A DNA stretch of 30,372 nt. It comes from a virus. Positions 4,382 to 27,690 of the stretch are shown here, in pieces. Position 1 is the stretch's first letter, and each line of letters opens with the position of its first letter. The DNA is taken from positions 1 through 30,372 of IMG/VR virus record IMGVR_UViG_3300008111_000075. The stretch is one strand, 5' to 3'. The translations under genes and the position numbers were made by a program. Under the pieces are notes generated by a model that saw nothing but the letters and a program-made list of their open reading frames with translations, was not told where the DNA came from and did not search any database.

Positions 4382-4507
4382 TCAATTGTTTTTAGGTTCG
4401 TTATACTTATACTTATTTCTTCGCTTTGGTTTTGGGGAATATGGTCCCATTCCGTCAGTCATCAGCAACAGGCCAAGACCTGTGCTGAGACAAAAGATTA
4501 TTATCAT
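4382..4507 (-). CDS. Small basic protein (41 aa) upstream of ssb
   Basis: A 41-residue frame starting MIIIFCLSTGLGLLLMTDGM and ending in the basic stretch PKPKRRNKYKYNEPKNN. The first half is hydrophobic enough for a signal anchor or short membrane segment, and the second half is strongly positive. The ATG overlaps the stop of the 105-residue gene (TAATG) and the stop is 1 nt from the ssb start, so it fills the gap exactly. Function unknown. The positional fit is the main support; no homologue comes to mind. Confidence 0.55.
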   Translation of the reverse strand: MIIIFCLSTGLGLLLMTDGMGPYSPKPKRRNKYKYNEPKNN

Positions 4508-4824
4508 TAAAACCATACTGAATCCTCCTCATCAGACTCATAAGCCTCCATTAAAGTTTCAGAAAATAGGGTTTCAAGTTCATATTTGCTACGTTCAAAC
4601 AAGATAGCAGCTTCTTCGATTGTGACCGATTTATTATAGTCAGTAATGAAGATGTCATCGAGTTCAAAATATGCTCCGTAATCGGGTTCTATTTGACATC
4701 CGTAGGAGTCTCTTGAGCCTCTTTCTTCTTCGACAAATGTTCCTGTCAATCTTACATAAACTTCGTTTGTAGGGAAGTTATCGCATTCCATATAAATGCC
4801 TGTGCTAAATGTGTTGTTGTTCAT
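4507..4824 (-). CDS. Acidic hypothetical protein, first gene of the ssb operon
   Basis: A 105-residue, strongly acidic protein (end: EAYESDEEDSVWF) with no recognised domain. The centre (YFELDDIFITDYNKSVTIEE) suggests a small alpha/beta fold. It is the first gene behind a well-formed Bacteroidota promoter (4855-4885), with AACTACCAA 3 nt before the ATG, and leads a short operon with the 41-residue protein, ssb and the 27-residue membrane protein. The similar net charge to SSB's tail and its position suggest a DNA-metabolism accessory or host-takeover protein, but this is a guess. Confidence 0.6.
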   Translation of the reverse strand: MNNNTFSTGIYMECDNFPTNEVYVRLTGTFVEEERGSRDSYGCQIEPDYGAYFELDDIFITDYNKSVTIEEAAILFERSKYELETLFSETLMEAYESDEEDSVWF

Positions 4825-4827
4825 AAC

Positions 4828-4836
4828 TTGGTAGTT
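4828..4836 (-). promoter_or_regulatory. AACTACCAA start-site motif
   Basis: Reads TTAAAACTACCAAGTT and then ATG on the minus strand. The same sequence, including GTT-ATG, precedes the gene starting at 8859. It is one of several copies tied to early gene starts; it does not resemble a Shine-Dalgarno sequence. Confidence 0.6.
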
Positions 4837-4854
4837 TTAATAATTAACGATGCA

Positions 4855-4885
4855 CAAAGATAATAATATTTTATTATACTTCAAA
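4855..4885 (-). promoter_or_regulatory. Bacteroidota-type promoter with palindromic operator (site a)
   Basis: On the minus strand TTTG (4885-4882), a 19-nt spacer, then TATCTTTG (4862-4855), an exact match to the Bacteroidota primary sigma consensus. The spacer contains ATAATATTATTATT-type sequence that forms an 18-bp near-palindrome at 4860-4877 (17 of 18 positions of ATAATAAAATTTTATTAT), touching the -7 box. A repressor bound there would block polymerase. It serves the operon ending with ssb. Confidence 0.8.
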
Positions 4886-4888
4886 TAA

Positions 4889-6616
4889 TCACAGCACATT
4901 TTTTAAATTTATTTGCACACATCTACCGATAAGACCTGGAGCAAATCTTGTTGTGCCTCTTTTCGATGCTCCTTTATGCCTTAGAAGTACAGTTGAATAG
5001 CTTATTGCCCAAGGCGTTCGACTGAGAATCATTTTTACCCAAGTAGATGTATTCAGAATTAACAGATACTTTTCTTTGTTTTCTTCTACAACTCTCAATC
5101 CTAATCTCTGAAGCCTCTCATCAGCTGCCGATTGCTTAATTTTTGCTTGTGGCTCATATTCCGAAGCATATTCAACAAGCTCTCCGACTGTTACAGTACC
5201 AATAAAATCTCCTTCGATGCGAGTTTCATTCTGCAAAATTGTCTGTAGGCATCTTTCTTCATCCGTTAAGTCTGCTGCTTGATTCAATAGTCCTTTCATT
5301 TTTAGAAGTTCGACAGATTCTTCACAAGCTTGCTCAAATGTAACTACTTCATCGTTCCAGGTGTGCCACCATCCACCAAGTAATGCACCGAACTGGTCAC
5401 CTATTGCCCGATCATTCACAGCTTCTGTAATCACTTCAGTAAATATTGCAATGGACTGCAAGATGTTCGGCACAAGATTTACCATCCTCGCTATGAATCT
5501 CACGCCAAAATCCTTGTTAATGACTTCTTTTTTTCTCTTGTTTAATGCATTGAACTTCTCAGAGTCTTGATGCTTTGCAAGTTCAAATACTGTGAATCTT
5601 CTCTTGTCGCTATCATTTACCAACTGAGGATTTATACTGACAAACAAAAAACAACTGCGGACAAAATAGTCCGTTGCTTTTCCATCCTTTCCACCTTTCG
5701 GAATGGCAGGAGATTTTTCAGAGCTTCCTGCCCGGGCAAGTGCAATAACTTCCTGCATTCGCTTTGCGGCATTTTCATCGTTACCTTCAGACTCATCAAT
5801 CGTGACTGGCATAGCATCAGAATTGAGTTTCTGCCTTATCGCTGCCTCTGTCGCTGCTGTTCCTTGAGCATTGATTGAAAACTCTCCTAAGACCTGATGA
5901 ATAATCTGCTCAAGTACATAGGTCTTTCCGTTTCCTCTTGGGCCTGTAATCCAAATGTGAGGCCTCCAAGATAATGCTCCACAAATTGGTGCTATCGCTA
6001 ACCATCCTGCCAACATCTTACCATCTGCATCTGTCTGCCAATTAAGTCCTGACAAGATTTTTGTAAGGAGTGAACATTCGATTCTATCCATTGATGACTC
6101 AATCGGAATTCGGATGTTCTTTCGCATCTCATAGGTGAACTCCGTTTCAATGCTGCCAAGGTTATATCGAATCTTCTCGCTGAGTAATTGCATTCCACTA
6201 TGGAAAATAATTCTGTCGGATTCTTTCCAGGCTCCTCTGCCTCGGATATTCTGCAAATCAAAATATCCTACTTTGTTACAGCATTGAACTAAGAAGTTGG
6301 AGATATATTCTGACTTGGAAAAAACTTCGCGATCCCAAAACTCTAATGGTGCCAAAGCAGTAACGTGCTGCTTGGTGAACTTTCCTGTAGTGAATGCCAA
6401 TATAGCATTGCTTACTTTGGAGTAGAAGTAGAACCTTTGCGCTCTCGCTTCAGTATCCCATCCTAATGGCTTAAAATATCCACCGATGAAGCCTCTCGAA
6501 TCAGTTGTTATAGAGTTCTCCGGTGCTGCCTCCGCTTTTGGCTTTTTGGCTCTTTTCTTTACTGGTGGTAATACATCTTCGGGATTGTTATCCCATTTAA
6601 TTGGTAGTTTTGTCAT
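4889..6616 (-). CDS. AAA+/SF3-like replicative helicase (primase-helicase type)
   Basis: A 575-residue ATPase. After a basic start (VKKRAKKPKAEAAPENS) and a region of about 190 residues without a clear motif, it shows Walker A GPRGNGKT (225-232), Walker B VTIDESEG (271-278), a sensor-1 like FLFVSINP (about 323-330) and DKRR (337-340), a likely arginine finger. This order fits the helicase half of phage primase-helicases (D5/SF3-like) that unwind the fork. The catalytic motifs of a primase are not evident, so priming may come from elsewhere. The C-terminal part (HKGASKRGTTRFAPGL) may bind DNA. It is the last gene of the long minus operon and overlaps the preceding gene by 4 nt. Its first codons carry the AACTACCAA motif. 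Confidence 0.75.
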   Translation of the reverse strand: MTKLPIKWDNNPEDVLPPVKKRAKKPKAEAAPENSITTDSRGFIGGYFKPLGWDTEARAQRFYFYSKVSNAILAFTTGKFTKQHVTALAPLEFWDREVFSKSEYISNFLVQCCNKVGYFDLQNIRGRGAWKESDRIIFHSGMQLLSEKIRYNLGSIETEFTYEMRKNIRIPIESSMDRIECSLLTKILSGLNWQTDADGKMLAGWLAIAPICGALSWRPHIWITGPRGNGKTYVLEQIIHQVLGEFSINAQGTAATEAAIRQKLNSDAMPVTIDESEGNDENAAKRMQEVIALARAGSSEKSPAIPKGGKDGKATDYFVRSCFLFVSINPQLVNDSDKRRFTVFELAKHQDSEKFNALNKRKKEVINKDFGVRFIARMVNLVPNILQSIAIFTEVITEAVNDRAIGDQFGALLGGWWHTWNDEVVTFEQACEESVELLKMKGLLNQAADLTDEERCLQTILQNETRIEGDFIGTVTVGELVEYASEYEPQAKIKQSAADERLQRLGLRVVEENKEKYLLILNTSTWVKMILSRTPWAISYSTVLLRHKGASKRGTTRFAPGLIGRCVQINLKNVL

Positions 6617-7998: not shown

Positions 7999-8596
7999 TT
8001 TTTCTGATAGTTTTTTTAAGTTTCGTTAATGCCACAATTGTTTTCTTTAGTTCTTCAGGGAATCGATGTACAGTATTAAGCTTAAGATTTTGACTTTTAG
8101 TAATCAACATCAGATTGTTAATGTCATACTTATTCTTTCTTGGGTCTTTTACTCTTACTACACATCCTTTTGGAACTTTTCCGTAGGCTTCTTCCCAAAT
8201 CAGAATCTCTTTTCGAATCCATTCGTTATCTGCTACCTTGACCATTAAGAACATATCTTTTCCGTCTATCCTGGTATCGCCAACTTGTCTTGTATTGTGT
8301 GGCTTGTGTCCTTTTTTGAAGCTTGTTTTGTTGGCTCCAATGTACCCTTTTACTCCTTTGTTCCAAGGAACGTTTCCAGGTTGAAACTTTGTACCTTTAT
8401 TAAGCTTCCTGAGCCTGATTGCTTCCTTATCGAGAAGCATCTTCATATATTCTTCTGACCTTTTTAATCCTAATAGATTTGCTTGTGAGTAAATAGAACT
8501 ACTGCTTCTTTCCAAGATTCTGCAAATCTCCTTTATGTCAGTATCAGAGTAGAGGGCACTAAGTACCCTCCGCTCATCATCTGTCCACTTTCTCAT
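7985..8596 (-). CDS. HNH-endonuclease-like protein, catalytic His apparently missing
   Basis: A 203-residue protein. Residues 1-45 (RKWTDDERRVLSALYSD, KEICRILERSSSSIYSQAN) form a Myb-like/HTH DNA-binding domain. Then come two copies of an F-x-x-G-x-x-P-x-N motif (FQPGNVPWNKG at 71-81, FKKGHKPHN at 93-101), as in NUMOD-type modules of phage HNH enzymes. The HNH core is WEEAYGKVPKGCVVRVKDP with KYDINNLMLIT. Where HNH enzymes have His-x-D-G, this one has V-K-D-P, and the nearby Gly-His is Gly-Cys, so nuclease activity is doubtful. Homing-type or DNA-binding regulator are both possible. It overlaps its neighbours by 4 and 14 nt. Confidence 0.7.
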   Translation of the reverse strand: MRKWTDDERRVLSALYSDTDIKEICRILERSSSSIYSQANLLGLKRSEEYMKMLLDKEAIRLRKLNKGTKFQPGNVPWNKGVKGYIGANKTSFKKGHKPHNTRQVGDTRIDGKDMFLMVKVADNEWIRKEILIWEEAYGKVPKGCVVRVKDPRKNKYDINNLMLITKSQNLKLNTVHRFPEELKKTIVALTKLKKTIRKNGTK

Positions 8597-8859
8597 ATAT
8601 ATTCCTTATGATAACCCCAAAGAATATCTCTTACTTCGCAATAGTATTTGTAAACAGGTTCTATAGAAGTGCTGAATACATCTTGAGTAAGTAAAACTGA
8701 AATAATATCATCAACTGCTGCGTTTGCGTGATAAATTGCTATCATCTTCTGATAGTTTGTAGCATTGTCGAAATCTGCTACTACTGAATATTTCCCAATA
8801 AATTGTTTTGCCTTTTCTTCAGGCGATAATCTGTGAAATGAACTTTGTAATTCTGACAT
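8593..8859 (-). CDS. Conserved small phage protein, first gene of the helicase operon
   Basis: An 88-residue helical protein. The centre (YHANAAVDDIISVLL) and end (VYKYYCEVRDILWGY) match a small family common in phage early regions, in which a helix of the form A-x-x-AVDEII is followed by YW-x-x-V-x-x-EI. Function unknown. It is the first gene behind the promoter at 8899-8929, with AACTACCAAGTT directly before its ATG, and overlaps the HNH-like gene by 4 nt. Confidence 0.65.
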   Translation of the reverse strand: MSELQSSFHRLSPEEKAKQFIGKYSVVADFDNATNYQKMIAIYHANAAVDDIISVLLTQDVFSTSIEPVYKYYCEVRDILWGYHKEYI

Positions 8860-8862
8860 AAC

Positions 8863-8871
8863 TTGGTAGTT
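8863..8871 (-). promoter_or_regulatory. AACTACCAA start-site motif
   Basis: Minus strand TTAAAACTACCAAGTT followed by ATG, identical over 19 nt to the copy at the gene starting at 4824 although the proteins are unrelated. This makes a nucleotide-level signal more likely than chance. Confidence 0.6.
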
Positions 8872-8898: not shown

Positions 8899-8929
8899 CA
8901 AAAGTATAATAAAATTTTATTATCTCAAT
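8899..8929 (-). promoter_or_regulatory. Bacteroidota-type promoter with perfect 18-bp palindrome (site b)
   Basis: Minus strand -7 box TACTTTTG (8906-8899) fits TANNTTTG; 19 nt upstream lies ATTG (8929-8926), one off TTTG. Between them ATAATAAAATTTTATTAT (8906-8923) is a perfect palindrome that touches the -7 box. It drives the seven-gene operon from 8859 to 4889. The -33 end overlaps the stop codon of the SF2 helicase gene. Confidence 0.75.
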
Positions 8930-10484
8930 ACTTTTTGTAACTTTTTTTGAAATTATTTTTATTTTCTATTCTCTTCCATCCATAGAATGAGTTCCAGGCA
9001 CTATCGATTGCAGTCTTTAAATCTTGATGTGATGTAGATACAGCGTTTATTTTGTACTTTGAATTTATTTTATCTATAGTATTATTATCTTTCATCACTC
9101 TTGATTCAAAAATATGCTTCACCCAAAAATCTTTGTACTTCATTCGCTCTTTCAATTGCCATAATTCCTCCAGGGTAACGCATTCATATCTTTCTTTAGG
9201 CTTGGCTCCTTGCTGCATATTTAAAAAATCATCCAAGGACCTATCATCTTTTACAGCAACTGCATTCTCAATCTTCTTTTGTTCTTTTTGTTTTACCTCT
9301 GGTATCAATCCGCACTCAGGACAGCACTCTTCAGTCTTTTCAAAAACAGCATAACAGCCTTGGCAAACATTATAGTTCTCTTCGACTTCGTTCTTTTTTT
9401 TCTTTTTCTTCTTGATGCCATTCAAATCCCATTCACGAGGTGTGAGCGGATGTAAATGTCTTACCATATTATTAACGTGATCTAAAATGATGCATTTGTC
9501 TTTCCCGGCACAAGGTCTCAATCCCCTACCAACTATCTGAAGATATAGACTGAGTGATGCCGTTGGTCTGAGCATACCTACTACAGCGACAGCAGGAATA
9601 TCTGTTCCCTCGCTGATTAGGTTACAAAACGTAACCACCTGGATAGTTCCATCCGCAAGTCCTTTGAATATCCTATCAACTTCTTCATCTTTTTGCTCTC
9701 CGTGAACTGCCTCAGATGTGTATCCTGCATCTCTGAAAGTCTTGGCCATTTCCTGTGCGTGGAAGATTGTGGAACAGGAATAGATTGCAGGCGCACCATC
9801 AGCAAGTCTTCTATATTCCTTGACTATGTCTCCGCAAATTGCAGCATCTGTCATTACATCAGATATTTCGCCCAAATCATATTCCCCGAAATTATTCTGC
9901 TTCAAGTTGTCCAAAGCTTCAATTTTCTTGAACATATAATATGCCGGCATAACAAGATTACCCATCTGAATCAATTCTGCAATTGCAGGCCCGAGAACCA
10001 TCCGCTCAAACATATCTCCGAGACCTTTTCCATCCAATCTCCAAGGTGTTGCAGTAACACCAAGCATAAATACATCGGAGTAGTATTCCATTATCGCTTT
10101 CCAGGTTCCTGCGGATGCGTGGTGAGCTTCATCTATTATTATAAGGTCAGGTGTCGGGACTTCATCCAATCTGTTCTTTAATGTCTGCACACTACAAACC
10201 TGTGCTTGGTATTGGTAGTTTTTAGGATGTCCGCCTGCAATGATTCCGTGTTGCAAGTTATATTTATTGCATCGCTCAGAGATTTGTCTCACAAGGTTCT
10301 TCTTATGCACCAGGAAGAAAACTTTCTTGTTTCTGCTCATCGCCTGCTCTGCGATATGAATGAAAGTTTCAGTCTTGCCCCCACCTGTGGGAAGTACAAA
10401 CAAAACTCTTTTGCTTCCTTGCTTAAAGTGACCTCGAATAGAATCTACTGCATCGGATTGGTATGGTCTAAGAGTTACGCTCAT
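8925..10484 (-). CDS. SF2 DEAH-box DNA helicase with C-terminal zinc ribbon
   Basis: A 519-residue helicase counted from the ATG at 10484. Motifs: LRPYQSDAV (Q-like, 5-13), LPTGGGKT Walker A (31-38), DEAH (118-121), TATP (144-147), and QIVGRGLRP motif VI (316-324), so both RecA-like domains are complete, as in UvsW/RecQ-like phage SF2 enzymes that remodel forks and branch points. Cys374, 377, 387/388 and 391 form a zinc-ribbon-like finger, preceded by eight lysines. An upstream TTG at 10511 is possible but sits deep in the HTH gene; the ATG still overlaps that gene by 17 nt, so the two are probably coupled. Confidence 0.85.
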   Translation of the reverse strand: MSVTLRPYQSDAVDSIRGHFKQGSKRVLFVLPTGGGKTETFIHIAEQAMSRNKKVFFLVHKKNLVRQISERCNKYNLQHGIIAGGHPKNYQYQAQVCSVQTLKNRLDEVPTPDLIIIDEAHHASAGTWKAIMEYYSDVFMLGVTATPWRLDGKGLGDMFERMVLGPAIAELIQMGNLVMPAYYMFKKIEALDNLKQNNFGEYDLGEISDVMTDAAICGDIVKEYRRLADGAPAIYSCSTIFHAQEMAKTFRDAGYTSEAVHGEQKDEEVDRIFKGLADGTIQVVTFCNLISEGTDIPAVAVVGMLRPTASLSLYLQIVGRGLRPCAGKDKCIILDHVNNMVRHLHPLTPREWDLNGIKKKKKKKNEVEENYNVCQGCYAVFEKTEECCPECGLIPEVKQKEQKKIENAVAVKDDRSLDDFLNMQQGAKPKERYECVTLEELWQLKERMKYKDFWVKHIFESRVMKDNNTIDKINSKYKINAVSTSHQDLKTAIDSAWNSFYGWKRIENKNNFKKSYKKY

Positions 10485-10694: not shown

Positions 10695-10722
10695 CAAAAG
10701 TAATAAAATTTTATTATCTTTG
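10695..10722. promoter_or_regulatory. Divergent early promoters sharing one palindrome (site c)
   Basis: The palindrome GTAATAAAATTTTATTAT (10700-10717, 17 of 18 positions) is flanked on the right by TATCTTTG (10715-10722) for plus-strand transcription of the RecE-like gene, and on the left by TACTTTTG read on the minus strand (10702-10695) for the HTH gene. Both -7 boxes overlap the palindrome ends, so one bound dimer could control both directions. The -33 elements are poor, which may mean activation or weak basal expression. Confidence 0.7.
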
Positions 10723-10750: not shown

Positions 10751-10759
10751 AACTACCAA
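10751..10759 (+). promoter_or_regulatory. AACTACCAA start-site motif
   Basis: The last A of the motif is the first base of the start codon of the RecE-like gene, so the motif directly abuts initiation. Confidence 0.55.
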
Positions 10760-11514
10760 TGACAAATCAAGAGTATCACTCAAAAACAGATTTTCTAAGC
10801 AAGACTTTGCTTGATCAGATTCGCAAATCTCCTGCTCACTTCCAGGCATATATTAATGCCGAAAAAAAAGAAGCTACTTCAGCTATGAACTTCGGAAGCT
10901 TAGTTCATTCTGTACTATTCGAACAGGATAACTTCGCAATTATGCCAACCTGTGACAGAAGAACTAAGGAAGGTAAACTACTTTATGAGGCATTCTTAGA
11001 AAATGCTCAAGGTGTTGAACTAATCGTTACAGAAGAACAGCACGAACAAGCTTTGAAAATCGCTCAAGCAGTTCTACAGCATCCAAAAGCATCGGCACTA
11101 CTTCAAGATGGTAAAGCAGAGCTTCCGGTATTCGGACAAATCGAAGGCATTAACTTTAAATGCAAACCCGATTTTCGCAATACTAAGTTCAATGTATTGC
11201 TTGACCTTAAAACAACTACAGACAGTTCTCCTTCAGAGTTTGCAAAATCTGTATGGAATTATCGTTATCACGTTCAAGCAGCATTATATATGGACTTGAC
11301 TAAAGCAGATAGGTTCTTCTTTATTGCTGTAGAAAAAGAATCTCCGTTCAATGTTGAGGTGTACGAACTTGACCAGGATGCAATACAGAAAGGTAGAGAA
11401 GATTACCTGGCAGATATTGCAACTTACAAAAAATGTGTCGAAACAAACAACTGGCACGGATACACAGAAGACAAGTCAATCAATATTCTTTCACTCCCTA
11501 AATGGGTTAAATAA
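10759..11514 (+). CDS. RecE-like exonuclease (PD-(D/E)xK superfamily)
   Basis: A 251-residue protein with the layout of the RecE C-terminal nuclease domain. SAMNFGSLVHSVLFE contains the conserved GxxxH (His50), then AELPVFGQIEG (Glu121), KCKPDFR (Asp138), LLDLKTT (Asp149, Lys151) and the YHVQAALYMD helix (about 170-179) with the conserved Gln. Such enzymes degrade the 5' strand of double-stranded DNA ends to give 3' tails for annealing. The next gene is a probable annealing protein, so the two form a two-component recombination pair. It is the first gene behind the divergent promoter at 10715-10722. Confidence 0.8.
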   Translation: MTNQEYHSKTDFLSKTLLDQIRKSPAHFQAYINAEKKEATSAMNFGSLVHSVLFEQDNFAIMPTCDRRTKEGKLLYEAFLENAQGVELIVTEEQHEQALKIAQAVLQHPKASALLQDGKAELPVFGQIEGINFKCKPDFRNTKFNVLLDLKTTTDSSPSEFAKSVWNYRYHVQAALYMDLTKADRFFFIAVEKESPFNVEVYELDQDAIQKGREDYLADIATYKKCVETNNWHGYTEDKSINILSLPKWVK

Positions 11515-11520
11515 CTACCA
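11513..11520 (+). promoter_or_regulatory. AACTACCA start-site motif inside the recombination operon
   Basis: Lies 2 nt before the ATG at 11523 and overlaps the stop codon of the preceding gene. There is no promoter here, so the motif is not just a promoter companion; a second full AACTACCAA follows at 11539-11547 within the first codons. Confidence 0.5.
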
Positions 11521-11522
11521 CA

Positions 11523-12050
11523 ATGTCAAACATCACAAAACTACCAACATTCCAGGAACTAATCACAGATTCTGAAGACAGCCTCAAGCAAAATGCCTTA
11601 ACTGTACTGCTAAATCAAGACCCTCCGAAGGCTTGGTTACAAGAACATCCAATGATAAAAGGCTATCGTTACATCTCAATTGAGAAAATTGAGTACCTTT
11701 TAACACGAATTTTCACAAAATGGTGGGTAGAAGTGAAAAACGTTCAAGTTGTCGCAAATAGCGTTGTAGTCACGGTTAGGCTCTTTGTAACAAATCCGAT
11801 AAATGATGAAATAATGTTTCAAGATGGTATCGGAGCAGCACCAATACAAACAGACAAAGGAGCAGGTGCAACTGATTGGAATGCAGTAAAGACCGATGGT
11901 GTACAGAAAGCAGCACCCGCAGCCGAGACATACGCAATAAAAGACGCAGCGGAGAAATTTGGCAAGATTTTCGGCAGAGATGTGAGCAGAAAAACAACGA
12001 TGGACTATAATCCGTTACTGAAAAAAAGCGATTTTAACGACCAAGTTTAG
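11523..12050 (+). CDS. Probable Rad52-like single-strand annealing protein
   Basis: A 175-residue protein. RYISIEKIEYLLTRIFTKWW at about 49-68 and the strand pattern NVQVVANSVVVTVRLFV are followed by QDGIGAAPIQ, then AETYAIKDAAEKFGKIFGRD. This is the Rad52/Sak arrangement of an early helix with aromatic residues, a beta hairpin, an invariant-like G-x-G turn, and a helix with A-x-x-DA-x-x-x-FG. Together with the RecE-like gene 8 nt upstream it would pair complementary strands during recombination-dependent replication. RecT/Erf type is the alternative. It is the last gene before a terminator. Confidence 0.65.
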   Translation: MSNITKLPTFQELITDSEDSLKQNALTVLLNQDPPKAWLQEHPMIKGYRYISIEKIEYLLTRIFTKWWVEVKNVQVVANSVVVTVRLFVTNPINDEIMFQDGIGAAPIQTDKGAGATDWNAVKTDGVQKAAPAAETYAIKDAAEKFGKIFGRDVSRKTTMDYNPLLKKSDFNDQV

Positions 12051-12106: not shown

Positions 12107-12381
12107 GTAACAGCCTTTTTTTTTGTTACGCTTTTCGTTTCTATTAACTTATTGATTCTCAATACTTGTAACAATGTAACGATTGTAACGGAAAACAATA
12201 TATATATATATAGAGATTCTATTATGTATATATATGTGTATGTATATTCGTGTTACATATGTTACATAGTTATAATTATATTATTATTAAGTAGTTAGGT
12301 GTAACAAAATTGTGTTACTGCTATGTTACGTTTGTTACAGTTAATTTTAGTAAAAAAAAGACATATTTTTGCACTTGTTAC
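12107..12381. repeat. Twelve GTAAC/GTTAC repeats: candidate replication origin
   Basis: The 446-nt stretch 12102-12547 has no credible gene. Within 275 bp the pentamer GTAAC or its complement GTTAC starts at 12107, 12125, 12168, 12176, 12185, 12252, 12261, 12301, 12314, 12325, 12334 and 12377, nearly always preceded by T. Three direct copies at 12168-12189 are spaced 8-9 bp, three inverted ones at 12314-12338 are spaced 9-11 bp, and a TA-only tract (about 12198-12242) lies between the clusters. Iterated short sites around an easily melted tract, next to replication genes, is what iteron origins look like. A regulatory array is the alternative. Confidence 0.55.
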
Positions 12382-12436
12382 GTCATAGGGTTTTCATATA
12401 GGGGGAAGGTTATTTGGTAGTTCCCTTCCTCCTTTT
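12364..12436 (+). ncRNA. Candidate small RNA or structured late leader
   Basis: TATTTTTG (12364-12371) fits a -7 box. Beyond it GGGGGAAGG (12401-12409) pairs with CCTTCCTCC (12424-12432; eight Watson-Crick pairs and one G-U), leaving a 14-nt loop TTATTTGGTAGTTC, then TTTTC. The loop contains TTGGTAGTT, the exact complement of the AACTACCAA motif at early gene starts. An RNA of about 60 nt would present this as an accessible seed. No good -33 element is seen and the T tract is short, so it may instead be the leader of the terminase operon. Confidence 0.4.
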
Positions 12437-12547
12437 CAAAAATCTTCGATTTAAGGCACTTTTTTTTGTTTTTGATAGTAGAGTACCACTTTAGAAATAA
12501 AATTGAATGTAGGTACTAAAGAATGATAAATAAACATATTTTAACTT

Positions 12548-12901
12548 ATGCCTTTTCAACCTGGGAACAGTCTAAGCAAGGGAAGACCCAAGGGAGCAAT
12601 AAATAAGACCACTTCCGAAACCAAAGCCTTCCTTGCTCGAATTTCGAATAAACTCGGTCAACGTATCGAGGAAGACCTTGATATGATGGAACCTAAAGAC
12701 AGGGTAAAAATTTGGCTTGAACTACAGGAATACTTAATACCAAAGCTATCCAGGACAGAGATAACTGGTGAGGATGGTGGAATGATAGAGATACAACAAA
12801 CCCTAAAATTAGAAAACCTTGGCATTGATCAACTCAGAGAGCTTGAAAGAATTGCTGAACTTGCAGCGGATTCGACAGCTGATAGCAGCCAAGGATTTTA
12901 A
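12548..12901 (+). CDS. Terminase small subunit candidate
   Basis: A 117-residue protein directly before the large terminase. The start (FQPGNSLSKGRPKGAINKTT) is the basic GRPKGAxN motif typical of small proteins found at this site in many phages, followed by a helical part (DRVKIWLELQEYLIPKLSRT) resembling the oligomerisation helices of TerS. TerS proteins recognise the packaging site and feed DNA to the motor. The function rests mostly on position and the N-terminal motif. It overlaps the downstream frame by up to 83 nt. The 5' leader of about 110 nt is AT-rich without an obvious consensus promoter. Confidence 0.65.
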   Translation: MPFQPGNSLSKGRPKGAINKTTSETKAFLARISNKLGQRIEEDLDMMEPKDRVKIWLELQEYLIPKLSRTEITGEDGGMIEIQQTLKLENLGIDQLRELERIAELAADSTADSSQGF

Positions 12902-14261
12902 GCGGTTCGTTTCTCACACAAAGCCTGACTACCAATTCAACTGGCATCATTTACTTTTGATTGACTACCTTCAAAAATTTGCGGAAGGTAAGATTCGGAA
13001 GCTAATGGTGTTTATGCCACCTCAACACGGAAAGTCTGAGTTAACATCCAGGAGATTACCTGCTTATTTGCTTGGCATCAATCCAAAACTAAAGATTGTC
13101 GGATGCTCTTATTCTGCCGACTTAAGCAGAAGCTTCAACAGAGATGTGCAGCGCATTATGGATGATGATGTTTACATCGATGTATTTCCGAACACCAGGT
13201 TAAACTCTTCTAACATTAGGACATCTGCCAAAGGTAGCTATCTTAGGAATGCAGATATTTTTGAGATTGTTGAGAATGTAGGTTTTTATAAATCTGTTGG
13301 CGTTGGTGGATCGCTTACCGGTACACCAGTTGACATTGGAATTATTGATGACCCTGTAAAGGATGTTGTTGAGGCGAATAGCTTAACCTATAGAGCAAGA
13401 GTTTGGGATTGGTACAATGGTGTTTTTTCTACTCGTTTGCACAATAACTCTCAGGTGCTTATCACTCAAACAAGGTGGCACGAAGATGACCTTAGCGGTA
13501 GAATCTTAAAGCAGAAGGATGCACACGAATGGACAGTATTAACGCTTCCGGGTATCTTGATGTCAGCAGATAAACACCACAATGACCCAAGGCAAATAGG
13601 TGAAGCACTATGGGAGAATCGACATAGCTTATCGAAGCTTCAGAAGTTCCAGGATAACTCACCAAGATTATTCCAGGCGATGTATCAGCAAGACCCAAGA
13701 CCATTCGAAGGTGGATTGGTTTATCCAAGGTGGAATGCAATCGAAGAGGCAGAGTACAAGCAAATCGGTATTGAGCCAATTTACGGACTTGACTTTGGTT
13801 ACAGCACGAGTCCTGCTGCATTTGTAGAGATTAAACTCGATACAACAAACAGAAAAATTTACCTAAAGCAGTTAATCTACAAGCGAGGAATGGGTATCGA
13901 TGAACTTGGCGAAGAGATAAACAGAACAATTCAAACGAACCGAGGTAAGATTATTGCGGATTCTGCCGACCCGATATTGATTGACCACCTCAGAGGTAAG
14001 CACAGGTTAAACGTTCACAAGGCAGAGAAAGGAAAGGATTCAATAAGCTATGGCATCTCAGCTATTAACGAGTTCGAACTGGTGGTTACAAGTGCAAGCA
14101 AGGATATTGCCATTGAACTTTCGAACTACCGGTACAAGGAGGATGCCGATGGTAATCCACTCGATGAACCGATTAAAGAATTCGACCATTCACTCGATGC
14201 TATGCGATATGCTGTTACCTCTATAATCTCGAAGAAAAATAATAAATTTGTACTAATATGA
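12819..14261 (+). CDS. terL: Terminase large subunit (packaging ATPase/nuclease)
   Basis: Motor protein of DNA packaging. Counted from 12819: Walker A MPPQHGKSE (66-74), Walker B GIIDDP (174-179), and the RNase H-like nuclease with YGLDFGYS (Asp325) and a late EFDHSLDAMRYA carrying the final acidic residues. Both domains are complete. No ATG exists before about residue 63, so the start is a TTG: 12819 gives 480 residues, while TTG at 12861, with less overlap with the small subunit, gives 466. Translation is probably coupled to the preceding gene. It overlaps the next gene by 4 nt. Confidence 0.9.
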   Translation: MALINSESLKELLNLQRIRQLIAAKDFKRFVSHTKPDYQFNWHHLLLIDYLQKFAEGKIRKLMVFMPPQHGKSELTSRRLPAYLLGINPKLKIVGCSYSADLSRSFNRDVQRIMDDDVYIDVFPNTRLNSSNIRTSAKGSYLRNADIFEIVENVGFYKSVGVGGSLTGTPVDIGIIDDPVKDVVEANSLTYRARVWDWYNGVFSTRLHNNSQVLITQTRWHEDDLSGRILKQKDAHEWTVLTLPGILMSADKHHNDPRQIGEALWENRHSLSKLQKFQDNSPRLFQAMYQQDPRPFEGGLVYPRWNAIEEAEYKQIGIEPIYGLDFGYSTSPAAFVEIKLDTTNRKIYLKQLIYKRGMGIDELGEEINRTIQTNRGKIIADSADPILIDHLRGKHRLNVHKAEKGKDSISYGISAINEFELVVTSASKDIAIELSNYRYKEDADGNPLDEPIKEFDHSLDAMRYAVTSIISKKNNKFVLI

Positions 14262-24655: not shown

Positions 24656-24914
24656 AAAGGAATTTGCCCGCAGATTGGCAGAGCGAATAGAACAGATGCA
24701 AGACATCACAGCTGAGTCGCTCTCTGAGATGCTTATCAGTTCGGGGATTCTCTCTGAGCGCAGAGTAGTACAGTATTGTGCTATCTGTGAGTTTTACGAT
24801 TCGATTGGTCAAAAAACAAAAACGCAGACAATTAAGGAACTGTCTGCGAAGTATAGTGTATCTGAAAGAGTTCTTATTGAGCTAACAGGTCGTGAACGTC
24901 GTTTCTCTGTTTAA
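24633..24914 (+). CDS. Small HTH-like protein at the end of the tail operon
   Basis: A 93-residue protein (from the ATG at 24633; 24624 would add three residues). It is helical, and the end TIKELSAKYSVSERVLIEL looks like a helix-turn-helix, preceded by YCAICEFYDSIGQKTKTQT. It may bind DNA. It overlaps the CxxC gene and, unusually, its last 41 nt overlap the end of the convergent sigma factor gene. No terminator is visible between the two operons. Confidence 0.55.
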   Translation: MVSTESIKKEFARRLAERIEQMQDITAESLSEMLISSGILSERRVVQYCAICEFYDSIGQKTKTQTIKELSAKYSVSERVLIELTGRERRFSV

Positions 24915-25635
24915 GCTTGTGTAATGCTTGTTGATGCAGCTGTCTGATTCTTTGTTGTGAGTATTCAAGTTTATCTGCAATCTGCCGAAAGCTTAAAGGA
25001 AAGTCATCCAGGTATAAACTTTGAATGATAAAATATTCTTCTTTAGTAAGATTTTTAAGGATTGATTTTATCCTCTTGCTAAAACTTAGATTCTCGATTA
25101 CTCTTGCAGTATCTTCATCGGATGCAAACTGCTTTTCAATTTCATCTTCATCTTCTGAATTATTTTCAATGCTCAAAACTTTTGGGTAATGATGCATATC
25201 TCTTAGAAAATGTTTTGGAAAGATGTCGAGTTCTTTTAGTTCTGCTTCATCGTACTTTTCTTTAAGTTCAACATAGGTTCTAATGTAACGATAATTTTTC
25301 GATGGAATACGGATTGTACTTTGCGTATCGTAAATGTATTGAAGTATTCCTTGTCGGATATAGAACCTTGCAAAAGAAATAAACTTAAATCCTCTTGTAG
25401 GGTCAAACAAATCAGCTGCTTTTATCAATCCGATCATCCCTTCAGAAATTAGGTCTTTAATATCAGTTGCGCTATTATTGATTTTTTTGGCTTCCGATAC
25501 TACAAACAGCATATTGTGTTTGACCAGTTGTTCAGGTGTTGCTGTTACTTCTGCTTCAGGTTTAAGTGGTGGGTATCTTGCGGCCTCTCTTAAAAAGTGC
25601 TGTAGCGATTTATTGGTAAATCTCGTTTCGCTCAT
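24874..25635 (-). CDS. Phage-encoded sigma-70 family factor
   Basis: A 253-residue sigma factor. Region 2 spans about 38-110: VKHNMLFVVSEAKKI, DLISEGMIGLIKAADLFDPT, then GFKFISFARFYIRQGILQYI, the polymerase-binding and -10 recognition part. Region 4 spans about 193-245: LTKEEYFIIQSLYL and SFRQIADKLEYSQQRIRQLH, an HTH that reads the -35 side. An acidic linker (NNSEDEDEIEKQF) separates them, and region 1.1 is absent. It resembles the host primary sigma and may redirect host RNA polymerase to late phage promoters. It overlaps the glucosaminidase gene by 4 nt and is the last gene of its operon. Confidence 0.85.
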   Translation of the reverse strand: MSETRFTNKSLQHFLREAARYPPLKPEAEVTATPEQLVKHNMLFVVSEAKKINNSATDIKDLISEGMIGLIKAADLFDPTRGFKFISFARFYIRQGILQYIYDTQSTIRIPSKNYRYIRTYVELKEKYDEAELKELDIFPKHFLRDMHHYPKVLSIENNSEDEDEIEKQFASDEDTARVIENLSFSKRIKSILKNLTKEEYFIIQSLYLDDFPLSFRQIADKLEYSQQRIRQLHQQALHKLKQRNDVHDLLAQ

Positions 25636-26156
25636 TGGTCGTACTTGTAGAGTTTATAAGTCTCGATGACTTTGATTAGTGACTGAGCATAGTGCGGAGC
25701 AGTTGCATAACCAGCTTTTTTTAGTCCATACGCCCAACTTTTATAATCCGTGCGCTTTAGTTTACGCAAGTGTGAATATCTTTTCATACAGAGCAATTTT
25801 GAATGGTCACGATATGAACGCCAAGCTGATTTATAAACTTGAAATTTGTCGTTTGGTATGTCATCACGGTAAACTGCATATTTGCCAACGCCACGATATT
25901 TCATTCCGAAGTGATTGTTATGCTTTCGGCTTAGTTCCGATTTACCTGCATTGCTTTCTAAAATGCCCTGAGCGAGCTTTATACTTACTGGTATATTAAA
26001 TAGTTCAGCTTCTTTTTTTGCGGTCTTTAAAAAGCGTTTAATGTACTTGTCAACGTGTGTCGGTATTTTTGTTTGTTGCTTCTGATTTGCAGGTGTTGCA
26101 AGTGGATAGGTAGCACTCGCAAAAAGTAAGGCTGTTAAAAAAAGTAGTGTTTTCAT
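25632..26156 (-). CDS. Secreted GH73-type glucosaminidase (peptidoglycan hydrolase)
   Basis: A 174-residue protein. Residues 1-23 (MKTLLFLTALLFASATYPLA) are a signal peptide. The catalytic domain follows: IKLAQGILESNAGKSELS with Glu67 as likely acid, then NNHFGMKYRG, YKSAWRSYRDHSKLL and a C-terminal YGLKKAGYATAPHYAQSLI. This is the FlgJ/AcmA/GH73 pattern (AQ-x-x-LES-x-x-G-x-S, N-x-F-G-x-K, A-T-D/A-x-x-Y). The family cuts the bond after N-acetylglucosamine in the glycan chain. Being transcribed with the sigma factor and not with lysin and holin, it may act at a different time. Confidence 0.85.
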   Translation of the reverse strand: MKTLLFLTALLFASATYPLATPANQKQQTKIPTHVDKYIKRFLKTAKKEAELFNIPVSIKLAQGILESNAGKSELSRKHNNHFGMKYRGVGKYAVYRDDIPNDKFQVYKSAWRSYRDHSKLLCMKRYSHLRKLKRTDYKSWAYGLKKAGYATAPHYAQSLIKVIETYKLYKYDQ

Positions 26157-26748: not shown

Positions 26749-26892
26749 TTATTTTTTAAAGATTGCGAAACCAATTCCAATTCCGATACCCAAAACAAAA
26801 CTAAAAATAATAGTGTTGGTGGTTTGAGTAAAGATAAATCCGCAGGCGATTCCAAGTAACATACCTACAGTAAAGATAAAAAACAATTTCAT
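26749..26892 (-). CDS. Small two-span membrane protein (47 aa)
   Basis: A 47-residue frame starting MKLFFIFTVGMLLGIACGFI and ending VLGIGIGIGFAIFKK, with two glycine-rich hydrophobic helices separated by TQTTNT. Its ATG overlaps the stop of the SPOR-like gene (ATGA) and its stop lies 3 nt before the next start, so it fits exactly in the operon. Glycine-spaced helices suggest oligomerisation in the membrane; holin, anti-holin and superinfection exclusion are all possible. Function unknown. Confidence 0.65.
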   Translation of the reverse strand: MKLFFIFTVGMLLGIACGFIFTQTTNTIIFSFVLGIGIGIGFAIFKK

Positions 26893-27200
26893 CTTGTTGT
26901 GTAGAATGCTTTTGAATGCTGTTCGAATTGCTCTTTAGTGCGAACTGTGATAAATGCATCTTTATGCGCTCGCTTCCAGGTATCAAGCATAAACCAAGCT
27001 TCTTCGTGCGTAGTGTATGGAATTAAGATTCTGTGATACAAACCTGCTTGTTCGACATAGGCTTGGTCTTGTGCCATTGTGAGATGTTCGGCACGCACTA
27101 AGTCAATACGTTTGGTTGACATTAACTGAATGCAATAGACTGAATCTTGTTGCTGTGCCATTGCAGTAACTGCAAATAGGAGAAAAAATAATACTTTCAT
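26889..27200 (-). CDS. Secreted SPOR-like domain protein
   Basis: A 103-residue protein with a signal peptide (MKVLFFLLFAVTAMA) followed by a domain of the SPOR pattern: YCIQLMSTKRIDLVRAEHL, YVEQAGLYHRILIPYTTHEE and KRAHKDAFITVRTKEQFE. SPOR domains bind denuded glycan strands at division sites. I use the ATG at 27200, which gives a clean signal peptide and has AACTACCAA just upstream; the frame is open to 27290. Together with the glucosaminidase in the same operon it suggests that the phage manipulates the periplasmic wall. The domain call is by eye. Confidence 0.65.
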   Translation of the reverse strand: MKVLFFLLFAVTAMAQQQDSVYCIQLMSTKRIDLVRAEHLTMAQDQAYVEQAGLYHRILIPYTTHEEAWFMLDTWKRAHKDAFITVRTKEQFEQHSKAFYTTR

Positions 27201-27202
27201 TG

Positions 27203-27211
27203 TTGGTAGTT
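27203..27211 (-). promoter_or_regulatory. AACTACCAA start-site motif
   Basis: Minus strand TTTTAAAACTACCAACA and then ATG of the SPOR-like gene. There is no promoter in the 28 nt between this gene and the upstream one, so it acts, if at all, on the mRNA. Confidence 0.55.
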
Positions 27212-27228
27212 TTAAAATTGTTAAAAAA

Positions 27229-27690
27229 TTATTTAAGTGATTCGATTTTATTGATTGCCCAATTGATACCTTCATCGCCTCCCCAGGCATCCCACATCAG
27301 TCCTCCGCATCCTTGATCATAGCTTACATCTTTATTCTCCTTGTGTCTTATGAATGCTGCCATACGTTTTACGGTGGTGAGGCTGATAGGTTCTTTCTTT
27401 GCTAACTGATTTGCTCTCATCCATCCGACAAGAGTTCCGCAGTCATTCTTGTTTCCGTTTTCTTCTTTCCACTTTAATGCACGCTTAGCATTGTCAGTTG
27501 CAGCTTGAGGATAATCTGTGAACGTTTCTTCGTTTTTCGGATTGGTTGCCTTGTCTTTGTTGCTAAACTTCATAGAACAGATTGCATATCTTTGGTCTTG
27601 TGGATATTCAGAGACCATATTATCATCTGACATACAGCGTTCGATAAACTTGTCGAATGATTCTCCTGGATTTGGTGTAGGGATAGGCAT
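27229..27690 (-). CDS. Conserved phage head-region module protein
   Basis: A 153-residue protein. The start MPIPTPNPGESFDKFIERCM, then DQRYAICSMKF, is a motif common beside or fused to phage portal, protease or capsid proteins. The second half (ALKWKEENGNKNDCGTLVGW, ANQLAKKEPISLTTVKRMAA, GCGGLMWDAWGGDEGINWAI) is another domain typical of the same setting. The cysteines at positions about 19 and 38, 84 and 127 could bind metal. It stands alone on the opposite strand from the protease and capsid genes, behind its own promoter with palindrome. The role is unknown; a head assembly part is the usual guess. Confidence 0.65.
   Translation of the reverse strand: MPIPTPNPGESFDKFIERCMSDDNMVSEYPQDQRYAICSMKFSNKDKATNPKNEETFTDYPQAATDNAKRALKWKEENGNKNDCGTLVGWMRANQLAKKEPISLTTVKRMAAFIRHKENKDVSYDQGCGGLMWDAWGGDEGINWAINKIESLK

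Follow-up and report, generated by a model that had tools for sequence, protein, structure and literature searches.

A hairpin before the terminase genes of a phage carries the loop complement of a box at early gene starts: a candidate antisense control of translation

Why should a hairpin in front of phage terminase genes display in its loop the complement of a word that recurs at the starts of other genes? Could this arrangement hint at a small RNA that acts in trans on early messages? We examined these questions in an IMG/VR virus record of 30,372 bases with a G+C content of 38%, analysed over its whole length (the window). An earlier, sequence-only reading had suggested that the hairpin could be a trans-acting small RNA that silences early mRNAs together, with a structured leader of the terminase operon as the simpler alternative, and the comparisons below lend that suggestion partial support. 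To judge from the -7 box and the related contigs, the host is a Bacteroidota bacterium; relatives of the Rad52-like gene occur in a Bacteroidetes MAG and in a Lacinutrix MAG. The collections searched yielded no isolate of the phage.

The hairpin is found in a gap of about 500 bases 5' of a 117-aa gene (12548), presumed from its position to encode the small terminase, and of the large terminase gene (12819). Although it is placed within the leader of the terminase operon, its loop matches the starts of other genes. The arms GGGGGAAGG (12401-12409) and CCTTCCTCC (12424-12432) enclose the loop TTATTTGGTAGTTC (12410-12423), which confirms the 9-bp stem and 14-nt loop first described at 12401-12432. 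The stem includes one G.U pair (12403/12430), and A12400-T12433 adds a tenth pair. The folding energy of -17.3 kcal/mol (z -3.0) was equalled by none of 200 shuffles. MFE folds contain two or three weak pairs within the loop, which otherwise displays the antisense seed. The -7-like box proposed upstream of the hairpin does fit the expected consensus (Table 1) and reads TAAATTTG in the related contig L006. A sigma-70 promoter scan gave scores no better than those of shuffles. No canonical terminator was called at the T run downstream, which has no strong stem. Rfam 15 families reached their gathering score neither in the window nor in L006, L013, L069 or L152; at E<=1, the region 12200-12560 gave two matches, both far under their gathering scores.

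Table 1. Coordinates of the hairpin, the start boxes and the neighbouring features in the window.
Feature	Position	Strand	Basis or remark
Box AACTACCAA, 3 nt 5' of ATG, 105-aa gene (4507-4824)	4828-4836	-	Duplex with loop -13.1 kcal/mol
Box in codons 3-6, primase-like gene (4889-6616)	6601-6609	-	AAACTACCA the same in every group 1 primase start seen
Box, 3 nt 5' of ATG, 88-aa gene (8593-8859)	8863-8871	-	Site reading; relatives; duplex energy
Exact box copy within helicase gene, away from any start	10212-10220	-	Kept in L003, L004, L005, L008
Box overlapping ATG, PDDEXK/exonuclease VIII gene (10759-11514)	10751-10759	+	Becomes ACTACAATG in L006
One-mismatch box AACTACCAC before ATG, Rad52-like gene (11523-12050)	11513-11521	+	Exact in L085/L088
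Second, exact box, codons 6-9 of Rad52-like gene	11539-11547	+	Missing from the L010/L011/L012/L085/L088/L091 branch
Putative -7 box TATTTTTG of promoter 5' of hairpin	12364-12371	+	Matches TAnnTTTG consensus; kept in 12/12 aligned leaders
Hairpin (stem 12400-12409/12424-12433, loop 12410-12423)	12400-12433	+	Folding; conservation with pairing-keeping stem changes
Antisense seed TTGGTAGTT in hairpin loop	12414-12422	+	Constant across group 1a contigs; complement of top start word
Eight-T run that may be a weak terminator for a short separate RNA	12460-12467	+	TTTAAGRCACTTTTWTT kept 3' of hairpin
117-aa gene directly 5' of terL	12548-12901	+	phrog_8771, phrog_15261 (both function-unknown PHROGs); no Pfam match
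Large terminase subunit	12819-14261	+	Protein family match
Box, 2 nt 5' of ATG 27200, small protein with apparent signal peptide	27203-27211	-	Group 1 orthologues AACTACCAA, group 2 AACTTCA

Several further elements were seen around these features. TGTTAC/GTAACA repeat units lie 5' of the hairpin promoter in the window (12240-12345) and in relatives, and are possible binding sites of a late regulator. A sigma-70 family factor (24874-25635, - strand; Pfam Sigma70_r2 and r4, phrog_351) is a candidate driver of the late promoters. It adjoins the endolysin gene (25632-26156, - strand), whose start bears AACTTCAAAAC from about 18 nt 5' of the ATG, resembling the box of the sister phages described below, though this phage belongs to group 1.

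How specific is the box for gene starts? On both strands of the window, AACTACCAA has eight exact sites against 0.30 expected, and no shuffle in 100 reached eight. Of these, six are at gene starts, one is accounted for by the hairpin loop, whose complement it is, and one lies within the helicase gene; the last is kept in four relatives (L003, L004, L005, L008) despite varying neighbour bases. Reading of the individual sites bore out the claim that the loop is the exact complement of a motif at the starts 4824, 6616, 8859, 10759, 11523 and 27200. The gene at 10759 encodes a PDDEXK nuclease of the exonuclease VIII group, that at 11523 a Rad52-like annealing protein and that at 6616 a primase-like protein, while those at 4824 and 8859 encode small proteins with no function assigned. 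Within the mechanical ORF 26889-27290, the ATG at 27200 is an internal one; we took it as the true start because relatives of both groups, 1 and 2, begin the gene at this position, each group with its own box upstream of it. The early status of the boxed genes is inferred from function, and 27200 clusters with the sigma factor and endolysin genes.

Among 140 permutations of ACTACCA, only the box itself reaches its start count in the window. A ranking of start words blind to the hairpin placed ACTACCA first in group 1, with 28 seen against 0.4 expected. Box positions range from -12 to +25 relative to the start. The loop/box duplexes have energies of -10.8 to -13.1 kcal/mol, compared with a median of -5.5 over all starts. 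By a strict energy count, the group 1 loop matches 5-9 starts in each group 1 genome and 0-1 in other groups; by counts of 6-nt matches, real loops could not be separated from shuffled ones. Every group 1 member has the same codons AAA CTA CCA in its primase gene, even though CTA encodes a minority of leucines (89 of 788 in the window).

We gathered the group 1 relatives by protein searches with the Rad52-like, terminase, exonuclease and primase sequences and by a search with the loop sequence. Twelve other contigs share the loop core; two (L006, L007) carry a changed loop. The hairpin precedes the terminase genes in every related contig that covers the leader, about 25-40 nt 3' of the conserved TAnnTTTG box and about 15-20 nt 5' of TTTAAGRCACTTTT. 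In group 1a the loop seed TTGGTAGTT is constant while the stem varies with its pairing kept: one step is G.U or G-C among relatives, and both arms have gained an A-T pair in L011 (GGGGAAAGG/CCTTTCCCC) and a C-G pair in L006 (GGGGACAGG/CCTGTCCC). Boxes are kept at orthologous starts, and further small genes are boxed in G029, G030 and G031, giving up to 9 starts per genome. A blind search for intergenic hairpin loops complementary to gene starts ranked this hairpin first in five of five group 1a genomes. Hairpin and box are retained jointly in every related contig spanning both regions, and no related contig was found with AACTACCAA at its starts but lacking a complementary loop.

Do loop and boxes also change together? 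In the divergent pair L006/L007 the loop reads TTGTAGTTTAT, that is, TTGGTAGTT minus one G, leaving the shortened seed TTGTAGTTT. The orthologous exonuclease start of L006 has ACTACAATG in place of ACTACCAATG, and the orthologous Rad52-like start has ACTACTATG in place of ACTACCACAATG; both changed starts are without the C that matches the deleted loop G. ACTACTATG is also present at two more L006/L007 starts. The L006 loop has three starts with a 7-nt match, a number equalled by 11 of 60 shuffled loops. Because this is a single event with short duplexes, the co-change is by itself only suggestive. The L006 loop sequence occurs in 28 further viral contigs; among the relatives analysed, only L006 and L007 have it. 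Just 5' of the hairpin, the L006 leader contains a second copy of the antisense seed, GTAGTTTA (GTAGTTT).

A different pair exists in group 2, a sister clade whose Rad52-like protein is about 77% and whose nuclease about 67% identical. At group 2 starts AACTACCAA shows no enrichment, and the top start word is AACTTCA (25 seen, 1.65 expected), typically in the form AACTTCA-N4-ATG. A terminator-like hairpin 3' of ssb, CCGCCTG-TTTTGAAGTT-CAGGCGG-T8, is present in 16 of the 38 records searched, all 16 of group 2. Its loop TTTTGAAGTT is the complement of the AACTTCA box; its site is not homologous to that of the group 1 hairpin, and its T run lies 3' of the hairpin on the + strand of the ssb operon. 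The start enrichment of AACTTCA varies by genome: it is strong in G019 and G009, where the spacing between box and ATG is near-constant, and absent in G001, G011 and G020. On covariation of loop and motif the signs are mixed: loop and starts have changed in L006/L007 and group 2 has another pair, but the former is one event and the signal is weak in some genomes.

Group 2 phages also carry a second structured RNA of about 100 nt, 3' of the Rad52-like gene and behind a TATATTTG box (L069:10526-10700, L080, L056, L064, L013, L017, L015, L021, L027). A hairpin loop of this RNA (e.g. GCAACCAC) pairs with the downstream loop GTGGTTGC in a terminator-like stem. At five positions of the 8-bp loop-loop helix both partners have changed, and all nine sequences keep the helix 100% paired. 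It has no Rfam match in L069, L013 or L152.

These comparisons suggest that loop and boxes change together in related phages, and on this ground the hairpin is probably a small antisense RNA for group-wise control of translation. We propose that the + strand at about 12377-12467, transcribed from the promoter before the terminase operon, would give rise to an RNA hairpin, either as a separate RNA of about 60-95 nt or as the 5' end of the late mRNA. The loop would present UUGGUAGUU, whose partner in trans would be the box AACUACCAA, located where translation begins on at least six phage mRNAs, those for the exonuclease VIII-like nuclease, the Rad52-like annealing protein, the primase-like protein and small genes. 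With the box at -12 to +25, pairing would hide the site where the 30S subunit loads, and because that site is covered the boxed genes would be repressed together once the terminase-operon promoter becomes active. Boxes within operons (6601, 11513, 11539), at varied positions, fit such blocking of the start region. That the hairpin is a trans-acting antisense RNA blocking initiation of early genes and recombination genes upon firing of the late promoter seems to us an evenly balanced proposition, in which we infer the separate transcript, the direction of the effect and its timing. More broadly, a private box at early starts and one matching hairpin RNA may constitute the phage's own translation regulon, with other pairs at other places in related lineages, so that the code is rewritten as a whole. 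The system would then be the RNA equivalent of RegA, in a host whose initiation proceeds without Shine-Dalgarno sequences. We put this view forward tentatively, at somewhat short of an even chance.

Could a protein rather than an RNA read the box? The box might enhance initiation in this lineage specifically, or be bound by a phage RNA-binding protein in the manner of T4 RegA; the hairpin would then be a mere terminase leader, which is indeed where it sits, and the complementarity accidental or secondary. The phages G035 (L294, L295) and G036 (L334, L335) speak for this alternative. They have a strong start box, AAACCTTATT, placed 1-5 nt before the ATG of 7-8 genes in G035 and 3-4 in G036, and no complementary hairpin was found on their contigs of 35-38 kb; either such start boxes can arise for a different reason, or the matching hairpin lies beyond the contig ends. 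We nevertheless consider this explanation unlikely for the present phage. The loop/box match extends over 9 nt with both sides conserved. In two further lineages loop and box again fit each other, through different sequences, and group 2 has its hairpin at a site not homologous to the one here. No RNA-binding repressor family was detected among the 26 window proteins scanned. G033/G034 (ACTTATCA), G037 (AAACTAG) and G038 have weak start words and no convincing complementary hairpin. Five cultured Flavobacterium phages (1/32, tant8-1, 11b, 6H, FCL-2) lack both a start word of comparable specificity and a hairpin of this type, and neither box nor hairpin was found in the 8 kb of the Lacinutrix MAG contig L321, which carries a 61% relative of the Rad52-like gene.

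The same RNA-RNA pairing might also have another effect: the hairpin could activate or protect the boxed mRNAs, or abundant early mRNAs could serve as a sponge that controls the hairpin or the late leader. Activation would agree with a box placed about where a Shine-Dalgarno sequence would be, in a host group reported not to use such sequences (PMC6847099), and with the near-constant spacing in G019 and G009. However, occlusion better explains boxes placed across the ATG or within codons 3-9, and the shifting of the box relative to the ATG disfavours a Shine-Dalgarno-like activating role; as for the sponge, one hairpin facing many targets makes no obvious one. We judge either effect to be quite improbable.

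It is highly improbable that the - strand is the active one, with an RNA that shows AACTACCAA in its loop as a decoy for a box-binding protein. The box itself is present in the - strand loop, but in group 1 as well as group 2 the stem wobbles, which read G.U on the + strand, become A.C on the - strand, and the + strand also carries the conserved -7 box and the T run of the group 2 ssb operon. Because the G.U wobbles pair on the + strand only, we assign the RNA to that strand.

Three early promoters (4855-4880, 8899-8925, 10700-10722) share a palindrome near AATAAAATTTTATT, which abuts the TAnnTTTG box on its 5' side or overlaps it; it is likely a common operator, and the early promoters therefore seem to be regulated. 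A reading at the DNA level, in which AACTACCAA is bound by a regulatory protein and the hairpin is an inverted repeat, can be all but discounted: the palindrome does lie upstream of some boxes, but the boxes follow the ATG and not the promoter, several are inside operons or coding sequence (6601, 11513, 11539), and the stem varies in sequence with its pairing kept.

How does the proposed antisense RNA compare with known systems? In phage T4, RegA represses some 30 mRNAs through their initiation regions (PMC3014915). As in that system, a single phage-encoded trans factor would address numerous early mRNAs of the phage, at the AUG or immediately 5' of it, and the sites, like those of RegA, are unstructured and A-rich (PMC3014915). 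Unlike RegA, which is a protein, the candidate factor here is an RNA with exact complementarity, and no RegA family match was present among the 26 window proteins scanned. The trans-acting phage RNAs VpdS, PreS, 24B_1 and DicF resemble it as short phage RNAs that pair with mRNAs in trans; as far as the excerpted text of PMC12197685 goes, their targets are host mRNAs, Hfq or individual phage genes. P22 sar and lambda OOP likewise block phage mRNA by antisense pairing, sar at the initiation of ant, but each is antisense to one target, whereas a 9-nt seed would here act in trans on several (PMC12197685, in the same excerpts). To the extent that the excerpts cover it, this reviewed literature has phage RNAs directed at host genes or at a single gene of the phage; within a search of open-licence literature, those parts of PMC12197685 describe no phage sRNA that fits a box repeated across many gene starts of its own phage.

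A code of box and loop lends itself to clean compensatory mutations and offers a route to finding such RNAs in other phages from sequence alone. In staphylococci, RNAIII and SprX use a C-rich hairpin-loop seed common to the initiation sites of many mRNAs, and these seeds match the Shine-Dalgarno sequences of host genes. Unlike that seed target, the box here is lineage-specific, and the host group is reported to be without Shine-Dalgarno sequences (PMC6847099). Flavobacterium mRNAs have none (PMC6847099), and the usual Shine-Dalgarno target is therefore not available. If the proposal is true, a phage RNA addressing many of its own starts through a dedicated box would let a Bacteroidota phage pass from early to late expression by a compact switch that acts on translation.
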